Counted from the stretch's first letter, positions 18,786-27,603 are shown. The stretch: 27,745 bases of DNA from Candidatus Auribacterota bacterium (GCA_016932965.1 JAFGBW010000167.1:1-27745), one strand, 5' to 3'. Made by a program: numbers and translations. Notes: generated by a model from the sequence alone, not told the origin.

Positions 18786-19736
18786 ATGAAAAACCTCCCT
18801 GAAAAAAAAGAAATCCCCCGCCCTGTTTCAACGAGTATAGACATTAAAAACCGTATTGAGGAAATGCAGAAAAAATACCGCCTGGAATATAAGGGCTCAA
18901 TAGGGAAATTTACTGCTCCCGTTCATATTGCTCCAGGAAATAATTCCATCTGGGTTGTCAATCATGAGGAAAAAGGCAGTTCTCTTGTAGAAGTACACAA
19001 AGAGACGGGAGAAATAAAAAATCAATTCCATTTCGACGAATTGTTGCATTACATCCAATGGATTCCGGAAAATGAAAGTATCTTATTCTGTCACTGGGCA
19101 AACGTGGGATTATTGTATCGTTTTGATCTTAAAACAAATAAAATATCCCTGCTTAACCTGGATCAGGAAAAACATGGGCATGTTTCATCAATAAAAATCA
19201 TCAATGATAAAATTGTTTCACCGGATACTTATACGCACCAATTATTTTTTTATGATCTGAATGGGAATCTGGAACGGGTAATTAATCTGAAAACCAAGTT
19301 TGAATTCCCTATCCAACTATGCAGAATCCTGAGTACAACTCAAATCCTTTTAACTGCCTATGATGAAAGTTACAGAACCAGGTATCCTGATCTCTTTAAT
19401 AAATACAGGATTACAGATATGAATCCAAAAACAAATCTGGCAATACTTGATTTGAAGAATGAATCAATCCATTATTTACCAAAACTTGAAACACCGCCTG
19501 GCGAATATATATGGTCAATCTCTCAGCATATAGACGGTTCTTTTTTTCTTAATTCTCCTTCAACCTTATTCAAACTTGATTCCAACCTGAATATCATTTT
19601 TTCTATCAATTTAGAAAAAAATATTGAACGGATAAATCAAAATCAATTCCGGTGTTACGGTTCTTTTATTGAAAATAACAGGCTTTTTCTTCTTGAAATT
19701 TATAAAAATAGAACCATTTATCAATTTTCAATCTGA
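18786..19736 (+). CDS. Unrecognised beta-propeller-like protein in the glycan island
   Basis: I do not recognise this 316-residue protein. After a charged N-terminal helix (about 18-32, KNRIEEMQKKYRLEYKG) it is beta-rich with a period of about 45 residues. Repeated segments of the type SIWVVNHEEKGSSLVEVHKETGEI, ILFCHWANVGLLYRFDLKTNKI, QLFFYDLNGNLERVINL and TLFKLDSNLNIIFSINL resemble blades of a six- or seven-bladed propeller (NHL/PQQ-like). No signal peptide, membrane helix or catalytic signature is visible, so it should be cytoplasmic, possibly a binding or scaffold protein. It lies between the GDP-fucose synthase-like gene and pseB, on the same strand, 52 nt before pseB. No good ribosome site precedes the ATG. 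A link to surface-sugar handling is only positional. Confidence 0.6.
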   Translation: MKNLPEKKEIPRPVSTSIDIKNRIEEMQKKYRLEYKGSIGKFTAPVHIAPGNNSIWVVNHEEKGSSLVEVHKETGEIKNQFHFDELLHYIQWIPENESILFCHWANVGLLYRFDLKTNKISLLNLDQEKHGHVSSIKIINDKIVSPDTYTHQLFFYDLNGNLERVINLKTKFEFPIQLCRILSTTQILLTAYDESYRTRYPDLFNKYRITDMNPKTNLAILDLKNESIHYLPKLETPPGEYIWSISQHIDGSFFLNSPSTLFKLDSNLNIIFSINLEKNIERINQNQFRCYGSFIENNRLFLLEIYKNRTIYQFSI

Positions 19737-19788
19737 TTTATTCAAAAAACAAATCCGCACACATTTTGCGCTTTAAAAAGAGGTTATT

Positions 19789-20787
19789 ATGAGCATTTTT
19801 AAAGGAAAAAAAATCTTAATTACAGGGGGGACTGGCTCTTTTGGCAATGCATTTATTTCCAGAATGCTGAAAGATCCCACAATTGACCGTCTGATTGTCT
19901 ATTCACGTGATGAGTTTAAACAATTCGTCATGAAAAAAAAATTTGAAAAACATGAAAAAAAGCTCAGATTTTTTATTGGAGATGTGAGAGATAAAACTAG
20001 GCTTTATCGTGCTTTTGAAGGTGTAGATTACGTCATTCATGCCGCTGCTTTAAAGCAAGTGCCTGCATTAGAATACAATCCCATTGAAGCGATTAAAACA
20101 AATATCTATGGCGCTGAAAACATCATTGATGCCGCTCTTGATAAGGGGATTAAAAAAGTTATCGCTCTTTCCACTGACAAATCCGTTCATCCAGCTAATA
20201 TGTACGGTGCTACCAAAATGGTCTCTGATAAGCTTTTTATCTCAGCCAATGCCTATGCCGGAATGAAGGAAACACGCTTTTCCGTTGTCCGGTACGGCAA
20301 TATCATTGGCAGCAGGGGATCCGTCATTCCCTTTTTCAAATCCCTGATTGAACAGGGTGCAACGGAACTTCCTATCACAGATATGCGTATGACTCGCTTC
20401 TGGATAACGCTTGATCAGGGAGTTGATTTGGTTATTGAGGCCCTAAAATCTTCACAAGGAGGAGAAATCTACGTAGCCAAAATTCCTTCTTTTAAAGTCA
20501 CGGATTTGGCTAAAGCCATGGGCCCCCATTTAAAACAGACCGAAACTGGTATTCGGGTGGGTGAAAAACTTCATGAAATCATGATCACTGAAGAAGATTC
20601 AAGAAACACTTATGAATATCGAAATCATTTCATTATTTATCCCAATTTTGAATGGTGGAGTTGCTCACAGCAGATTAAAACCAATGGAAAAAAGGTCAAA
20701 GATGGATTCCGCTATACTTCTGATACCAATAAAAAATGGCTTGATATAAAAACCTTACAGAATCTTCTACCTAGACTCAAGATGTGA
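19789..20787 (+). CDS. pseB: UDP-GlcNAc 4,6-dehydratase (inverting) PseB
   Basis: PseB makes the first step of pseudaminic acid synthesis: C4 oxidation, C6 dehydration and C5 inversion of UDP-GlcNAc to the 4-keto-6-deoxy-L-arabino sugar. The 332-residue cytoplasmic protein keeps the family hallmarks: GGTGSFGN (13-20), VYSRDEFKQ, FFIGDVRDKTRL, HAAALKQVPALEYNP, the catalytic cluster STDK (Asp130, Lys131), Tyr139/Lys143 in MYGATK, RYGNIIGSRGSVIPFF, and TDMRMTRFWITLDQGV. The last motif and ExxLHEIMI (EKLHEIMI) separate it from membrane CapD/WbpM dehydratases and from the retaining enzymes of legionaminic acid synthesis. GAGG precedes the ATG. pseG starts 3 nt after its stop. The PseC aminotransferase that normally follows is absent here. 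Confidence 0.95.
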   Translation: MSIFKGKKILITGGTGSFGNAFISRMLKDPTIDRLIVYSRDEFKQFVMKKKFEKHEKKLRFFIGDVRDKTRLYRAFEGVDYVIHAAALKQVPALEYNPIEAIKTNIYGAENIIDAALDKGIKKVIALSTDKSVHPANMYGATKMVSDKLFISANAYAGMKETRFSVVRYGNIIGSRGSVIPFFKSLIEQGATELPITDMRMTRFWITLDQGVDLVIEALKSSQGGEIYVAKIPSFKVTDLAKAMGPHLKQTETGIRVGEKLHEIMITEEDSRNTYEYRNHFIIYPNFEWWSCSQQIKTNGKKVKDGFRYTSDTNKKWLDIKTLQNLLPRLKM

Positions 20788-20790
20788 TAA

Positions 20791-21783
20791 ATGAAGGTTT
20801 ACATTTTATCTGAAGGAAATAAAGAGACCGGATTCGGTCACGTAACCCGATGTATGTCTATCTATCAGGCTTTTCTTGAAAAAAGGATTTCCCCTATCTT
20901 CATTATCAACGGGGATGAATCAACTCAAACAGTATGGAATGGGGCATCTCCGCTTTTGATGAATTGGATAGAGCAAAAAGAGGTTTTAGAGGAGATTTAT
21001 GGATCGGATATGGTGATCATTGACTCATATTTAGCTGACATCCCATTTTATCGAACAGTATCTAAAATCGTTAAGATCCCAGTATATTTTGATGATATCC
21101 AGCGGCTGGAATACCCGAAAGGAATCGTGATCAACGGAGCAATAGGCGCAGAAAATATATCCTATCCTATAAGAAAAGATATTCACTACTTATTAGGTCA
21201 TCGATATTCCTGTCTCAGAAAAGAATTCTGGAGAGTTCCTGTTAAAAAAATCAGAAAAAATATTCAGAATATTCTGTTCACTTTTGGGGGAAATGACATG
21301 AGAAACCTGATGCCATCTGTATTATCCGCTGTTATCCGCGAAGCGCCAAAGATAAATAAATTCATTGTAGCAGGAAGAGCGTTTAACCATATCGAGGAAA
21401 TCGAAAAGGTAAAAGACGAATACACTCAAATAATTTACGACCCAGATGCAAAAACAATAAGGAACCTGATGCAAAGGGCGGATATCGCCGTTACTGCCGG
21501 CGGTCAGACTTTATATGAGCTCGCAAGGATGGGAGTCCCCTCAATCGTGATTTCTGTAGCGGATAATCAGAAAAATAATATCTTGGGCTGGCTGAAGATG
21601 GGTTTTATTGAATATGCAGGCTCTTGGCATGAAAATAATCTATTAGAAAAAGTGAAGAGAGCTATCCGGAAAATCAAATATCAAAAAATCAGGAAACATC
21701 AATCCGAGATTGGAAAAAAACTTATCAATGGGAAAGGATCACGTTTGATAGTCAAGACATTGCTTGAAAGATTATCCGCATGA
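20791..21783 (+). CDS. pseG: UDP-2,4-diacetamido-trideoxy-L-altropyranose hydrolase PseG
   Basis: PseG removes UDP from the altrose derivative before condensation with phosphoenolpyruvate. The 330-residue GT-B-fold protein has the N-terminal ETGFGHVTRCMSI with the catalytic His at residue 17, as in characterised PseG, the FTFGGNDMRNL nucleotide loop, and the C-terminal VTAGGQTLYELARMGVPSIVI segment. Length is typical for the stand-alone enzyme; the PseH acetyltransferase domain found fused in some organisms is missing. It follows pseB by 3 nt and overlaps the formyltransferase gene by 4 nt (ATGA), so translation is coupled. In this operon its substrate is probably a 4-formamido rather than 4-acetamido sugar; this is inferred from the next gene. 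Confidence 0.9.
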   Translation: MKVYILSEGNKETGFGHVTRCMSIYQAFLEKRISPIFIINGDESTQTVWNGASPLLMNWIEQKEVLEEIYGSDMVIIDSYLADIPFYRTVSKIVKIPVYFDDIQRLEYPKGIVINGAIGAENISYPIRKDIHYLLGHRYSCLRKEFWRVPVKKIRKNIQNILFTFGGNDMRNLMPSVLSAVIREAPKINKFIVAGRAFNHIEEIEKVKDEYTQIIYDPDAKTIRNLMQRADIAVTAGGQTLYELARMGVPSIVISVADNQKNNILGWLKMGFIEYAGSWHENNLLEKVKRAIRKIKYQKIRKHQSEIGKKLINGKGSRLIVKTLLERLSA

Positions 21784-22472
21784 AAAAAAAAACGGTTATT
21801 ATTGCCACCATTAAATCATGGAATATCGAAAACGCCAAAAAGTTCAAAAAACAATATCTCTCCCATCTGAATACGATTTTAATAACCCATCAAAATCAAC
21901 TGGATGCTTCAATTTTACATGAATTAAATCCCTCCTATATCTTTTTTCCTCATTGGTCATGGATCATTCCTGAAACAATTTTCAAAAATCATGCGTGTGT
22001 TATTTTTCATATGACAGACTTACCTTATGGAAGAGGAGGAAGCCCGCTGCAGAATCTGATAGTCAGGAGAATTAAAAAAACAAAAATCACGGCTTTAAAA
22101 GCAGTGCGCGAACTTGATGCAGGCCCTGTTTATATGAAAAAAGATTTAGACCTCCGCGGATCAGCTACCCAAATCTATAAAAGAGCCTCAAAAATTATTT
22201 TTAACAAAATGATTCCTGAGATTATTAAAAAGAATCCCACTCCAGTTACACAAAAAGGCAAGCCGGTTTTTTTTCACAGGAGAAAACCATACCAAAGCCG
22301 CATTGCAAACCTGAAAACATTAGATGAAATTTATGATCATATAAGAATGCTCGATGCAGAAGGGTATCCGAAGGCTTACATTGAAAATAAAAAAGTTAAA
22401 ATATATTTTGAAAACGCAAAATTGCGTAATGGGATTTTAACAGCAAAAGCTTTTATGGAGATCAATCAATGA
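21780..22472 (+). CDS. Formyltransferase-family enzyme, probable sugar N-formyltransferase
   Basis: Members transfer a formyl group from N10-formyl-tetrahydrofolate to an amine. The 230-residue protein has the core motif HMTDLPYGRGGSPLQN (77-92) and the later ELDAGPVY with Asp113, the counterpart of the catalytic His and Asp of methionyl-tRNA formyltransferase. It is far shorter than that enzyme and lacks its C-terminal tRNA-binding domain. Its C-terminus (HRRKPYQSRI, IRMLDAEGYPKAYIE) is typical of sugar-locus members. The Asn two residues before His is Ile75 here. It lies between pseG and a deacetylase gene with 4-nt overlaps on both sides, in an operon without PseH. The simplest reading is N-formylation of the 4-amino sugar, giving an N7-formyl pseudaminic acid. 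That substrate is inference. Confidence 0.8.
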   Translation: MKKKTVIIATIKSWNIENAKKFKKQYLSHLNTILITHQNQLDASILHELNPSYIFFPHWSWIIPETIFKNHACVIFHMTDLPYGRGGSPLQNLIVRRIKKTKITALKAVRELDAGPVYMKKDLDLRGSATQIYKRASKIIFNKMIPEIIKKNPTPVTQKGKPVFFHRRKPYQSRIANLKTLDEIYDHIRMLDAEGYPKAYIENKKVKIYFENAKLRNGILTAKAFMEINQ

Positions 22473-23149
22473 AAAATAAGATATTGATTGTCGCAGCCCA
22501 TCCTGATGATGAAATACTCGGATGCGGGGGAACAATAACAAGATTAGTGAAAGAAGGTCATGAGGCTTACACCTTGATATTAGGAGAAGGAATAACCTCA
22601 AGGGATGAAACAAGAGACATCCGGAAAAGAAAACGGGAAATTGAGAAACTTAAAAATGAAGTAGCTGAAGCTAATCAAATAATTGGAGTCAGAAAGATTT
22701 TTACACATGATCTTCCTGACAACCGCTTTGATACCGTGCCTTTTTTGGATATAGTCAAAATCATTGAGAACATTAAAAATCAAATCAAACCATCAATCAT
22801 TTTCACGCATTTCAAGGATGATTTGAATATTGACCACCAGATTACAAATAAAGCAGTCATTACCTCAACAAGGCCCCTAAAAGATGAGCCGGTTAAAACC
22901 ATCTATGCATTTGAAATCCTTTCCTCAACTGAATGGAATTTTTCTGAATCATTTTCTTCAGACGTCTTTTTTGATATTTCTGAAGTATTGCCGACCAAAT
23001 TAATGGCATTAAAGAAATACACAAACGAATTAAGAAAGTTCCCCTTTCCGCGATCTTTAGAAGGCATAGAATTAAATGCAAAAAACTGGGGAATGAAAAT
23101 CGGGGTTGCCTATGCTGAGGCTTTTAAACTTATTCGAACTATTGTGTAA
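22469..23149 (+). CDS. PIG-L family (LmbE-like) N-deacetylase
   Basis: PIG-L enzymes are zinc hydrolases that remove N-acetyl groups from GlcNAc-type sugars. The 226-residue protein has the zinc motif AHPDDE (residues 10-15; His11, Asp14) and the second ligand region THFKDDLNIDH (His114, His123), plus the usual GCGGTITRL and RFDT segments. No signal peptide is visible, so it acts in the cytosol on a nucleotide sugar or free sugar. The ATG overlaps the formyltransferase stop (ATGA); pseI follows after 72 nt. In this setting it may deacetylate a pseudaminic acid precursor so that another acyl group can be placed. This would be the N-acetyl left from UDP-GlcNAc, position 5 of the final sugar. 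The substrate is not shown by sequence. Confidence 0.88.
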   Translation: MKNKILIVAAHPDDEILGCGGTITRLVKEGHEAYTLILGEGITSRDETRDIRKRKREIEKLKNEVAEANQIIGVRKIFTHDLPDNRFDTVPFLDIVKIIENIKNQIKPSIIFTHFKDDLNIDHQITNKAVITSTRPLKDEPVKTIYAFEILSSTEWNFSESFSSDVFFDISEVLPTKLMALKKYTNELRKFPFPRSLEGIELNAKNWGMKIGVAYAEAFKLIRTIV

Positions 23150-23221
23150 GAAACTATTTTTAAGAGTATCGTTTTTTAATTCTCATTAATGATGCACGTC
23201 TCAGATAGGGACCCGTAATCC

Positions 23222-24232
23222 ATGCTTAAACCTACATTCATCATTGCCGAAATCTCGGCCAATCATGGCCAAAATTATAATACCGCCATAAAATTAATTA
23301 AAAAAGCCAAAGAAAGCGGAGCAAATGCAGTCAAATTTCAAGCTTATACACCTGACACAATGACCATCAACAAAAATACAAAGTATTTCAAAATAAAACA
23401 TCCAAGATGGGGAGGACAAACCCTTTATCAACTATACCAAAAAGCATCCACTCCATGGGAATGGTTTAAGAGTCTTAAGAAATATTCAGAAGAGTTAGGT
23501 CTGATCTTCTTTTCGACAGCTTTCGATAAAACGTCAGTAGATTTCCTTGAATCATTGCATGTTCCAATGCACAAAATCGCTTCCTTTGAACTCGGGGATT
23601 TGGATCTCATTGAATATATTGGGAAAACGAAAAAACCGCTCATCATTTCAACAGGCATGTCAACTTTTGAAGAAGTCAAAGCAGCGGTTCGAACTGCGAA
23701 AAAGGCAGGAGCAAGAAGGATAACCTTGTTGAAATGCAGCAGCAGTTATCCGGCGGACCCACAATACATGAATTTGAAAACGATCCGCCACATGATACAA
23801 TATTTCAAACTGCCCGTAGGGCTATCTGACCATACGATTGGGATATCAAGCTCAATCGCAGCTGTATCTCTAGGTGCAACCGTTATCGAAAAGCATTTTA
23901 CCCTGTCCAGAAAGCATAAAACTCCTGATAGTTTTTTTTCAATGGAACCTGATGAATTTAGAAGCTTGGTAAATCATATCCGCGTTGTAGAAAAATCGTT
24001 GGGGAAAGTCTCTTACGGCATCACTCCTGAAGAACGAAAAAATCTTGTCTTTAAAAGGTCTCTTTTTGTTGTCAGGGATATGGGGAAAGGTGAAACATTT
24101 ACCCGAGAGAACATCAAAAGTATCAGGCCGAATCACGGTTTGCCTCCTGCAGAAATTACAAATATTCTTGGAAAATGCGCCACTAAAAATATTATAACTG
24201 GAACACCTTTAAACTGGAAAATGGTTGAATAA
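23222..24232 (+). CDS. pseI: Pseudaminic acid synthase PseI
   Basis: PseI condenses the hexose with phosphoenolpyruvate to form the nine-carbon sugar. The 336-residue protein has the NeuB-fold TIM barrel (FIIAEISANHGQNY, AVKFQAYTPDTMT, ISTGMSTFEEV, LLKCSSSYPA, GLSDHTIGISS, VIEKHFTLSR) and a C-terminal antifreeze-like SAF domain (from about 275, FKRSLFVVRDMGKGETFT...SIRPNHGLPP). The segment WGGQTLYQLYQKASTPWEW is characteristic of PseI and differs from sialic acid and legionaminic acid synthases. The ATG at 23222 follows a 72-nt gap with only a weak GGGA upstream, and pseF begins right at its stop. Any sugar made here therefore enters the pseudaminic branch. Confidence 0.94.
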   Translation: MLKPTFIIAEISANHGQNYNTAIKLIKKAKESGANAVKFQAYTPDTMTINKNTKYFKIKHPRWGGQTLYQLYQKASTPWEWFKSLKKYSEELGLIFFSTAFDKTSVDFLESLHVPMHKIASFELGDLDLIEYIGKTKKPLIISTGMSTFEEVKAAVRTAKKAGARRITLLKCSSSYPADPQYMNLKTIRHMIQYFKLPVGLSDHTIGISSSIAAVSLGATVIEKHFTLSRKHKTPDSFFSMEPDEFRSLVNHIRVVEKSLGKVSYGITPEERKNLVFKRSLFVVRDMGKGETFTRENIKSIRPNHGLPPAEITNILGKCATKNIITGTPLNWKMVE

Positions 24233-24233
24233 A

Positions 24234-24959
24234 ATGGCCCCAGCAGTTGCCATTATAACCGCCCGTGCCGGGAGCAAAAGAATTCCAAAAAAAAATATAA
24301 AACCTTTTGCTGGCGCCCCGATTATCAAATATTCCATCGAAGCCGCATTGTTTTCAGACTGTTTTCAAGAAGTGATGGTTTCAACAGATGATACAGGTAT
24401 TGCCGAAATTGCTGTTTCATATAAGGCAAAAGTACCTTTTTTCAGATCCAAAAAAACTTCTGATGATTGTGCAACGACGGCTGATGTAATCAATGAAGTT
24501 TTGCTGGAATACCAGAAGAACGGACAATATTTCGAATATTGCTGCTGCCTCTATCCAACCGCTCCTTTCACTACATCTGAAAAAATCATACAAGGTTTTA
24601 AGTTATTAAAAGAAAAAAAAGCTGATTCAGTAATCCCTGTGGTTCGCTTCAGTCATCCGATCCAAAGGGCCCTTAAAATTAAAAATGGAAAGCTAAAAAT
24701 GATCCACCCTGAATATATTCACGTCAGGTCCCAGGATTTAATAACGGCTTATCATGACGTGGGGCAGTTTTATTGGTTAAAGGTGAAACCATTTTTAAAA
24801 CATAAAAAGCTGTTTATGGAAAATACTGTTCCCATGGAAGTATCAGAAATGGAGGTTCAGGATATCGATGATGAAAATGACTGGAAGCAGGCTGAACTTA
24901 AATATAAAATTTTGAAAAGCAGGGTCTCCTCAGAGAGATATTCCCATGAAAAAATATAA
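24234..24959 (+). CDS. pseF: CMP-pseudaminic acid cytidylyltransferase PseF
   Basis: PseF activates pseudaminic acid with CTP for transfer to flagellin or surface glycans. The protein (241 residues from this start) has the cytidylyltransferase motif AIITARAGSKRIPKKNIKPF near the N-terminus, VMVSTDDTGIAEIA, LYPTAPFTT and the PseF-type VGQFYWLKVKPFL, followed by EVQDIDDENDW. I chose the ATG at 24234, one nt after the pseI stop. An upstream in-frame TTG at 24225 would add three residues and overlap pseI by 8 nt; GGA sits at a suitable distance from the TTG, so it cannot be excluded. It overlaps the next gene by 14 nt. Confidence 0.92.
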   Translation: MAPAVAIITARAGSKRIPKKNIKPFAGAPIIKYSIEAALFSDCFQEVMVSTDDTGIAEIAVSYKAKVPFFRSKKTSDDCATTADVINEVLLEYQKNGQYFEYCCCLYPTAPFTTSEKIIQGFKLLKEKKADSVIPVVRFSHPIQRALKIKNGKLKMIHPEYIHVRSQDLITAYHDVGQFYWLKVKPFLKHKKLFMENTVPMEVSEMEVQDIDDENDWKQAELKYKILKSRVSSERYSHEKI

Positions 24960-25572
24960 TACCGAGCAGGAAAAATTCTGGGCTGGAAGATTTGGAGATG
25001 AATACAGCCAAAGAAATCAAGGAAAGAATATTATCGCCTCAAATACCGCATTATTTACAAAAATTCTTTCTAAAACGAACAGTATTAGCTCCATAATAGA
25101 AATGGGCGCAAATATTGGATTAAATCTTATAGCAATAAAAACCTTACTACCTGGCGCATCTATTACGGCTCTTGAAATAAATCCCAAAGCAGTGAAAGAA
25201 CTAAAAAAGATTCCCTGCATTAAAGTTTATAATGAATCGATGCTTGAATATATTCCTGATCGGAAATGGGATCTTGTTCTTTCAAAAGGGGTTTTGATTC
25301 ATCAAAATCCTGATAAACTTGAAAAACTTTATCAATTGATGTATGACGCTTCAAAAAGTTATATCTGCATCGCCGAATATTACAATCCTTCACCAGTTGA
25401 AATTCCCTACCGGGGTCATAAAAATAAACTCTTCAAAAGGGATTTTGCCGGAGAGATGATGGATGCTTTTCCTGATCTTAAATTAATTGACTATGGTTTT
25501 GTATATCACAGGGACAATAATTTCCCACAAGATGATATCACATGGTTTCTCCTTAAAAAATTGCATTTCTGA
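24946..25572 (+). CDS. Pseudaminic acid biosynthesis-associated methylase
   Basis: This class I SAM-dependent methyltransferase of 208 residues matches the family regularly found in pseudaminic acid loci (TIGR03587 type). Features are the N-terminal TEQEKFWAGRFGDEYSQRN, SAM motif I EMGANIGLNLIAI (about 48-60), motif ALEINPKAVKEL, DLVLSKGVLIHQNPDKL, and the late IAEYYNPSPVEIPYRGH segment. It is cytoplasmic. Its start overlaps the 3' end of pseF by 14 nt, so it is translated with the Pse genes. Family members are thought to methylate pseudaminic acid or its nucleotide form; the exact position is not known to me. The gene marks this cluster as a true pseudaminic locus and suggests a methylated product. 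Confidence 0.88.
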   Translation: MKKYNTEQEKFWAGRFGDEYSQRNQGKNIIASNTALFTKILSKTNSISSIIEMGANIGLNLIAIKTLLPGASITALEINPKAVKELKKIPCIKVYNESMLEYIPDRKWDLVLSKGVLIHQNPDKLEKLYQLMYDASKSYICIAEYYNPSPVEIPYRGHKNKLFKRDFAGEMMDAFPDLKLIDYGFVYHRDNNFPQDDITWFLLKKLHF

Positions 25573-25617
25573 AAAAATAATTCTAATTCATCATTCATCC
25601 AGTCATATCTTTTGACC

Positions 25618-27603
25618 ATGAGTAACAGCCTTTTTGAGACTATTCAACAGATCAAGGAACCTTGTTTCAATGGGCCATACTGGACAGCAGAGATCTATGG
25701 ATTCGGAAAATGGATCCGTGATTATGGTTTTTTCCCGCGTCTTCTTCCCCTTTATATAATGACAGATCATGGCCCAAGATTTCGAAATGATGATATACAA
25801 TTTGAATTGAATTTTTCTGCACCTGTTCAATTCTTTCACTGCCAGCTATCTGTTGAAGCATGGAAAAAAGTTTCAAAAAAACCTTGTTATGTATTGTTCT
25901 CTCCCTTTGTTCATTATCGTCAGAGCAGGAATATCAAACAGAATCAAGATGCCAAAGGGACACTTGCTTATCCTGCTCACTCTACTCTTCAGATTAATGA
26001 GGAAACTGATACGGAAAAATATATTGAAGAGCTTCTCAAATTGCCTGAAGAGTTTCAGCCTATTCATGCGCAATTTCATTACTATGATATCTTAAGGGGA
26101 CGCCATTATCTATGGGAGAAAGCTGGAATTAAGGTTCACACTGCAGGCCATCCTGATGATTATTGTTTCACAGAACGGTTTTATGATATTTTAAGACGTT
26201 TCAAATTCACAACATCCAATCTACCCATGTCCTGTCTCTATTATTCAATAGAAATGGGGATTCCTCATTTTATTTATGGACCATCTCCAAAGTATTATAA
26301 TTATGGAGATGATACAGTAAAACTTGGAGAATATGACCCCGTTACTTATTTTTCCGGGATAAAACAAGTGTATGAAAGTTTTAATGGGATACGAAAAGAT
26401 ATCTCTCAGGAACAAAAAAAATTAGTTGAACTCGGATTAGGTCTTAAAACAGGAATCAGCCGTATTCATATGGCATTAATTCTTTACAGGATATGGATCA
26501 TAGAAACTATAAATAAAATCTTTAATTCATTTAAAATCTTTCTTGACCTGGCGCGAAGTAGGCTGAACGAACCTAAAGAAATGGCTATTGCCCGGCAATA
26601 TCAGAAAGCATCTCGGGAAAGACAATTGGGTAATTTAAAAAGTGCTGAAATTCTTTTTACATCTCTTCTTCAAAAAGCATCCCTATTATCTCCGGAATTA
26701 AAATCAAAGTATCTCGGAGGAGCTTGCTTCCATCTGGGATTAATAAAATTACAGAACGGACAAAAGGAAAAAGCTACTTCTTATTTTAAAAGAGCTTTGG
26801 AATTTAATCCGGATCATAAGAAAGCAAAAGAATACCTGGCAGATCCGGATATGATTTTCCCTCTTTCCGATCCCGAACGTTTAAGGATTGCATCATTACC
26901 TAGATATCAAAAGGATACTGTTTTATTTCATAATCATTTTCTAACTTTTCTGGATGGTCCCTCCTTATTATCTGGAATTAAAAAAATTTTTGAAGAAAAG
27001 AATTATGAATTCTTCACAACCAATCCAACTCCGGTAATTATTGATGCTGGAGCTAACATAGGGCTATCCATCATCTATTTTAAAAAAAAATTTCCCAATG
27101 CCAGAATCATCGCCTTTGAGCCGAATCCCGATATTTATAAGGTCCTATCACAAAATATGAAAAGTTTTGAATTTACCAATATTGAATACCACCAGAAAGC
27201 AGTCTGGAAGGAGAATGGCATATCACAATTTGATACTGAAGGAGGAGTTTCAGGACGGTTGATAAAATACAATGATAAGAAACAACTGATTAACGTATCC
27301 ACCATTCGTCTAGCTGATTTTTTAAAAGAAAAAATTGATTTTTTAAAAATAGATATTGAGGGAGCGAGAACAGAAGTGATACAGGACTGTTACGACAATC
27401 TACATAATGTGTCATATCTATTTGTGGAATATCATTCCTATCATAAAGAAAAACAAAGCCTCCATGAGATTTTAACTCTCCTTCACAAAGCTGGTTTCCG
27501 ATATCATGTTAAAGAACTATTTACTGTTCCCTATCCTTTTTTAAAAAGATCACTTCAAGATGAGATGGAACTGCAATTAAATATTTTTGGATTGAGAAAA
27601 TAA
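25618..27603 (+). CDS. Glycosyltransferase-like / TPR / FkbM methyltransferase fusion
   Basis: This 661-residue protein appears to join three modules. Residues 1-280 resemble a GT-B-like surface-glycan enzyme (YWTAEIYGFGKWIRDYGF, a DHGP loop at 50-53, and a donor-site-like FTTSNLPMSCLYYSIEMGIPHFIYG around 197-221). Residues about 328-408 contain TPR helices (SAEILFTSLLQKA, YLGGACFHLGLIKLQNGQ...SYFKRALEFNPDHKKA). Residues about 470-640 are an FkbM-type methyltransferase with SAM motif IDAGANIG (475-482), AFEPNPDIY and FLKIDIEGAR. No signal peptide is seen; a hydrophobic helix near 284-300 may touch the membrane. I start at ATG 25618; an in-frame TTG at 25612 is the alternative. It follows the methylase by 45 nt. 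The FkbM assignment is firm; the N-terminal call is tentative. It may transfer and O-methylate a sugar on a surface glycan. Confidence 0.75.
   Translation: MSNSLFETIQQIKEPCFNGPYWTAEIYGFGKWIRDYGFFPRLLPLYIMTDHGPRFRNDDIQFELNFSAPVQFFHCQLSVEAWKKVSKKPCYVLFSPFVHYRQSRNIKQNQDAKGTLAYPAHSTLQINEETDTEKYIEELLKLPEEFQPIHAQFHYYDILRGRHYLWEKAGIKVHTAGHPDDYCFTERFYDILRRFKFTTSNLPMSCLYYSIEMGIPHFIYGPSPKYYNYGDDTVKLGEYDPVTYFSGIKQVYESFNGIRKDISQEQKKLVELGLGLKTGISRIHMALILYRIWIIETINKIFNSFKIFLDLARSRLNEPKEMAIARQYQKASRERQLGNLKSAEILFTSLLQKASLLSPELKSKYLGGACFHLGLIKLQNGQKEKATSYFKRALEFNPDHKKAKEYLADPDMIFPLSDPERLRIASLPRYQKDTVLFHNHFLTFLDGPSLLSGIKKIFEEKNYEFFTTNPTPVIIDAGANIGLSIIYFKKKFPNARIIAFEPNPDIYKVLSQNMKSFEFTNIEYHQKAVWKENGISQFDTEGGVSGRLIKYNDKKQLINVSTIRLADFLKEKIDFLKIDIEGARTEVIQDCYDNLHNVSYLFVEYHSYHKEKQSLHEILTLLHKAGFRYHVKELFTVPYPFLKRSLQDEMELQLNIFGLRK

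Follow-up and report, generated by a model that had tools for sequence, protein, structure and literature searches.

The window, a stretch of 27,745 bases that makes up the entire contig C243 of the Candidatus Auribacterota genome, carries a tightly packed operon on the plus strand between positions 19789 and 25572. The seven open reading frames are real and their order is the one first claimed: pseB, pseG, a small formyltransferase gene, a PIG-L deacetylase gene, pseI, pseF and the gene of a Pse-associated methylase. The formyltransferase is called FT here; FT2 denotes a separate formyltransferase subfamily of ~215 residues (See below). Curated NCBIfam cut-offs were used for the pse genes and Pfam models for FT and PIG-L.

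19789..20787, plus strand: pseB, inverting UDP-GlcNAc 4,6-dehydratase (TIGR03589, 530 bits, cut-off 407.8)
20791..21783, plus strand: pseG, UDP-sugar hydrolase (TIGR03590, 147.1 bits, just below the cut-off of 153.6; adjoins FT in relatives too)
21780..22472, plus strand: FT, small sugar N-formyltransferase of the 1zgh/PF21553 family (PF21553, 74.6 bits, cut-off 27)
22469..23149, plus strand: PIG-L (LmbE-like) zinc N-deacetylase (PF02585, 91.4 bits)
23150..23221, no strand: 72-base gap from PIG-L to pseI, a slot filled by FT2 in loci L008, L009 and L010
23222..24232, plus strand: pseI, pseudaminic acid synthase (TIGR03586, 451.7 bits, cut-off 340.3)
24225..24959, plus strand: pseF, CMP-pseudaminic acid synthetase (TIGR03584, 292.2 bits, cut-off 205.7)
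24946..25572, plus strand: Pse-associated methylase (TIGR03587, 292.7 bits, cut-off 112.1)
25612..27603, plus strand: TPR and FkbM methyltransferase protein, N-terminal part unassigned (TIGR01444, PF05050, TPR)

When the junctions were read from pseB to the methylase gene, values of +3, -4, -4, +72, -8 and -14 bases were obtained. Thus, the seven genes are closely spaced and the PIG-L/pseI junction is the sole real gap.

The operon was compared with the CMP-pseudaminic acid pathway (PseB-C-H-G-I-F). PseB, PseI and PseF are present above cut-off and PseG is just below it; the top-scoring NCBIfam model for the window's pseG is PseG. In contrast to that pathway, the operon lacks PseC and PseH and has PIG-L, FT and the methylase in addition. 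Neither between the operon genes nor among the scanned upstream genes is there an aminotransferase or GNAT gene, and the whole-contig window contains neither PseC nor PseH, in agreement with the original prediction.

The FT and PIG-L families

FT (230 residues) has its nearest solved structure in PDB 1zgh (E-value 7.7e-81), with 56% identity across nearly the full length. That protein, from Clostridium (Acetivibrio) thermocellum, is labelled 'methionyl-tRNA formyltransferase'; its structure has been solved, and no substrate on record was found for it in the open literature. As the relatives sit in nonulosonic acid (NulO) operons, this family name is probably wrong. The motifs FFPHWSWI and GRGG.P.QN are present in FT and invariant in 32 aligned rows, and His77 and Asp113 are invariant in the 32 relatives. 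FT thus keeps the His and Asp of the Asn-His-Asp triad of Fmt and ArnA, but not the Asn, whose position is occupied by Ile75 and is non-Asn (Val, Ile, Cys and the like) in 32 of 32 rows. The sugar N-formyltransferases ArnA and VioF share with FT the Formyl_trans fold region including His and Asp, whereas FT is short, has its own C-terminal domain and matches them with only ~20-25 bits by phmmer. Because the catalytic Asn is missing in FT and its relatives, the formyl donor, presumably 10-formyl-tetrahydrofolate, was assigned from the family only. No activity or glycan structure was found in the open literature for members of the FT subfamily or for this organism.

PIG-L (226 residues) contains the AHPDD metal/base motif and the distal His ligands. 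His11, Asp13, Asp14, His114 and His123 are invariant among 28 aligned proteins, as are the subfamily motifs. PF02585 and the metal ligands are common to this protein and the BshB1/LmbE-like deacetylases. However, it reaches 73 bits with the BshB1 model against a cut-off of 182.5 and has subfamily motifs of its own (SST and PHPRS).

Pairing of FT and PIG-L in related loci

Scanning GTDB genomes yielded 80 FT loci, spread over numerous bacterial phyla and several archaea; an FT open reading frame was called in 78. The reading frames were called mechanically and the gene labels came from models built on the same loci. In 71 of these 78 loci the distance from FT to PIG-L is at most three genes, and the pair is nearly always inside a NulO operon. 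Among the seven others, the contig breaks off close to FT in three (L011, L066 and L078), and in L023 PIG-L is four genes away. Of the 50 well-covered loci, 48 have PIG-L, 43 have a DegT aminotransferase and 44 have an acyltransferase other than FT. The comparison of gene order in relatives, which had been proposed as a check, thus supports the pairing.

A draw of 398 genomes was made from the phylum of a clostridial genome (G063). PIG-L of this kind was found in 35 of them and FT in five, and in all five PIG-L is directly beside FT (chance of co-occurrence 4e-6, or 6e-4 for the three genomes new to the FT set). The pairing is thus not only an artefact of searching with FT. In one genome of this draw, G666, the FT reading frame is broken and PIG-L is intact.

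PIG-L is also found beside other formyltransferases (L122-L126, L194, L200 and L201), in clusters where no nonulosonic acid synthase was seen. In addition, it occurs in NulO clusters without FT (L191 and L192), and can therefore serve other acyl groups as well.

Although the FT/PIG-L module is widespread, we found no description of the pair as a unit in the open literature. A study of flagellin glycosylation in Aeromonas (PMC7874193) describes pse islands that contain deacetylase genes as well as PseG-PseH fusions. It differs in giving gene content only, and we saw neither a named formyltransferase nor a proposed acetyl-to-formyl role in it.

N7 acylation, missing genes and origin of the operon

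In the original prediction, FT replaced PseH: it would formylate the 4-amino group on the product of PseC to give N7-formyl, and PIG-L would make N5 available to another acyl group. No other N-acyltransferase could be recognised in the window, and Pseudomonas is known to have N7-formyl pseudaminic acids. We nevertheless consider this unlikely, as the relatives contradict it and the one known structure for which the gene set matches, that of Halorubrum (See below), is N5-formyl. FT is not confined to loci without PseH or an equivalent. The GNAT beside FT is PseH above the cut-off of 93.1 bits in L024 (170 bits), L034 (136 bits), L037 (131 bits) and L081 (98 bits). Methanohalophilus profundi is one organism in which FT, PIG-L and PseH are found together. 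PseG-GNAT fusions adjoin FT in eight loci, PseI-GNAT fusions also coexist with FT, and in L079 a GNAT and FT are fused in a single open reading frame.

When the acyltransferases of the 50 well-covered loci were sorted, 29 loci had a GNAT only, 13 had FT2 only, two had both and six had neither. GNAT and FT2 replace each other with a Fisher p of 6e-6, a value to be read as a guide rather than as a probability because the rows are related. The same exchange is observed within classes. In Clostridia the gene before pseI is a GNAT in L014 and L039 and FT2 in L025 and L048, and in Gammaproteobacteria the gene before FT is a GNAT in L044 and FT2 in L063 and L067. L025 and L067 come from cultured strains with a complete set of genes, Clostridium sp. 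KNHs214 and Shewanella kaireitica. PseC is retained in most FT operons together with another N-acyltransferase, which is either a GNAT (in some cases PseH above cut-off) or FT2; the predicted substitute for PseH is therefore FT2, not FT. In the three nearest FT relatives (L008, L009 and L010), FT2 lies between PIG-L and pseI. Since only the 72-base gap stands in this slot here, the window operon looks to have lost, or never to have had, an N7 acyltransferase.

The genome was then searched with profiles for the missing steps, as had also been proposed, and no match reached either cut-off. For PseC (cut-off 423.5 bits; genome 92.6% complete) the best match scored 364.5 bits. This protein (L001) was rejected as PseC since it is an ArnB within an arnBCA-like operon. 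The next match (L002) was not accepted either, as its branch is long and only loosely associated with PseC-type enzymes. For PseH the best match in the genome scored 45.5 bits. FT2 is absent from the genome; the matches to the formyltransferase models were FT, ArnA and an Fmt-sized protein only. PseC must thus come from elsewhere, as first supposed. Weak candidates for the amination and acylation of N7 are L002, an orphan and divergent DegT aminotransferase that is encoded on contig C215 and has PseC as its best family (298.7 bits), and a GNAT on contig C211. The latter contig carries flagellar genes (judged by eye from the sequences).

A second nonulosonic acid pathway was considered as a supplier and rejected. 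NeuB homologues are found on contigs C133, C200 and C161, but no PseC or PseH was recognised there by the models. The NeuB homologue on C161 adjoins a cytidylyltransferase. There was also no hint of misassembly at the pseB/pseG junction, where a 3-base gap without a gene remnant is found.

FT alone could also act twice: with FT2 or PseH lost, it would formylate N5 (after PIG-L) as well as N7, giving a di-N-formyl sugar. The missing FT2, in the operon as in the genome, would fit such a loss. However, no precedent was found, and the C211 GNAT, with about 46 bits to the PseH model, scores like the operon GNATs of several FT relatives (47-51 bits). We hold the di-N-formyl product to be very unlikely.

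The G+C content is 0.34-0.39 for the genes from 18786 to 27603, compared with about 0.41-0.46 in eight other contigs sampled, and FT was found in none of the other 43 genomes of the phylum. Both observations indicate horizontal gain of this low-G+C region. No FT was found in phages, and plasmids gave one full-length match, in a Synechococcus record.

The same observations would suit an import that is partial, truncated or in decay and from which no complete nonulosonic acid results. Alternatively, the missing genes may lie on an unassembled contig: the source genome is in 300 contigs, this one ends 142 bases past the last gene and, as the window is the whole contig, the operon could run on into an unassembled neighbour. 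Against this account, the reading frames are all open and the invariant residues of FT and PIG-L are kept. Moreover, two of 30 other FT genomes (L039 and L040) also have no PseC above cut-off, and L062 has no DegT gene near FT yet has PseC above cut-off in its genome. It was judged quite improbable.

Proposed acetyl-to-formyl exchange at N5

We propose, with a probability of about 0.6, that the operon makes a CMP-activated pseudaminic acid-type nonulosonic acid in which PIG-L and FT exchange an N5 acetyl for a formyl group. As to the substrates, the nitrogen position, the order and the donor of this exchange, we infer the following. PIG-L would remove the N-acetyl group inherited from C2 of UDP-GlcNAc, which becomes N5 of the final sugar. 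FT would then place a formyl group on the freed amine, presumably from the donor named above. The two enzymes would thus act in series on one nitrogen, most likely N5, and convert N-acetyl to N-formyl. The usual steps would be carried out by PseB, PseG, PseI and PseF, and the methylase would add a methyl group. The exchange may take place on the UDP-sugar, the free sugar, the nonulosonic acid or CMP-Pse. Formation and acylation of the 4-amino group (N7) would fall to enzymes whose genes lie in other parts of the genome or are missing from the assembly. As the operon has neither PseC nor an N7 acyltransferase, its pathway may be incomplete, which counts against this reading.

The strongest support from outside is chemical and comes from Halorubrum sp. 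PV6 (record MH673034), which makes 5-N-formyl-legionaminic acid (PMC6137143). The mass step reported for this strain (PMC6137143; 2 x 151 = 302, our arithmetic) fits one formyl and one acetyl group. In the same paper, genes 1046-1051 and 1053 are given with amplicon lengths and HrrPV6_1052 is undescribed (PMC6137143). We compared this cluster with locus L133 of genome G167, in which gene order and lengths match (legC 379 aa, legB 341 aa, legF 240 aa, legG 387 aa, formyltransferase 317 aa and neuD 209 aa). Judged from gene order and lengths alone, G167 would be PV6 or a close relative. At the position of HrrPV6_1052, G167 has a PIG-L gene (222 aa) on the other strand, followed by legI, and this protein has the same metal ligands and the same SST and PHPRS motifs as the family of the window PIG-L.

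Like the window operon, the PV6 cluster is a NulO cluster that contains a formyltransferase gene, and its match in G167 also encodes a PIG-L from the same subfamily. The PV6 cluster differs in having legionaminic acid instead of pse genes and a NeuC-type hydrolase, and in that no PIG-L gene is described in the paper. The Halorubrum formyltransferase also lacks the catalytic Asn and belongs to another subfamily (PF00551 and PF02911; 65 bits to the FT model). The parallel is therefore one of function, and homology is close for PIG-L only.

The original prediction holds in part under the exchange model. Support was obtained for a pseudaminic acid operon without PseC and PseH, for a product that likely bears a formyl group and for removal of the GlcNAc-derived N5 acetyl as the predicted role of the deacetylase, and a formyl-bearing pseudaminic acid made with a working deacetylase is reasonable. 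The assignment of FT to N7 in place of PseH did not hold. The pathway is also not confined to the window, which contains a reduced form of a module that spans lineages.

N5 exchange is the most likely role of this module, and we consider it somewhat better than an even bet that PIG-L and the formyltransferase form a widespread N5 acetyl-to-formyl unit in bacteria and archaea, with N7 set by FT2 or, interchangeably, by PseH. Four acyl patterns would result, and gene content would predict 5Ac or 5Fo combined with 7Ac or 7Fo. The sialic acid-family surface sugars of bacteria carry many N-acyl groups, and the enzymes that set these are mostly unassigned. A gene pair signalling N5-formyl would make the sugar chemistry of flagella, S-layers and O-antigens readable from genomes and would correct the family now labelled methionyl-tRNA formyltransferase. 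It also offers a candidate for the deacetylation step so far lacking in the route to the Halorubrum sugar.

The gene for the TPR and FkbM protein starts 39 bases past the methylase gene and has the low G+C content of the operon. We regard its product as a candidate glycan-modifying partner.

Formyltransferase and PIG-L pairs in other clusters

A longer formyltransferase adjoins a gene for a PIG-L (LmbE-like) N-deacetylase at eight loci (L122-L126, L194, L200 and L201). No nonulosonic acid synthase is visible in the clusters containing these pairs, an arrangement suggesting that the proposed acetyl-to-formyl exchange also acts on other sugars. A PIG-L gene (L133:7842-8507, genome G167) was also observed inside a cluster matching the 5-N-formyl-legionaminic acid cluster of Halorubrum, at the position of HrrPV6_1052, which was left undescribed in the Halorubrum paper. 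In genome G666 (L197), the frame of the small sugar formyltransferase (FT) is split into two pieces and the adjoining PIG-L and GNAT genes are intact.

Related formyltransferases and their annotation

In some nonulosonic acid operons, the place of the PseH-type GNAT is occupied by a second small formyltransferase subfamily, FT2. This subfamily (for example, L017:10342-11013) was found at about 20 further loci. Natural GNAT-FT and GNAT-PseI fusions were also observed (L079:8401-9678, a GNAT-FT fusion; L022:7466-8989; L043:1563-3071).

FT family members (PDB 1zgh; AP017960.1) are labelled as methionyl-tRNA formyltransferase. Despite this label, relatives in the family are situated in sugar operons, and the label is probably wrong.

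Flanking genes and additional synthases

Genes flanking the pse operon
18786-19736: 316-residue protein, low G+C, 52 bases upstream of pseB
25612-27603: 663-residue protein that combines TPR and FkbM methyltransferase domains

The 316-residue protein, for which neither Pfam nor NCBIfam gives a match, was probably acquired by import along with the operon. In the 663-residue protein, the N-terminal ~320 residues gave no family match; this part is a possible glycosyltransferase.

Three more NeuB-family synthases are encoded in the source genome (contigs C133, C200 and C161). As the C161 synthase adjoins a cytidylyltransferase, at least one additional nonulosonic acid pathway is likely.
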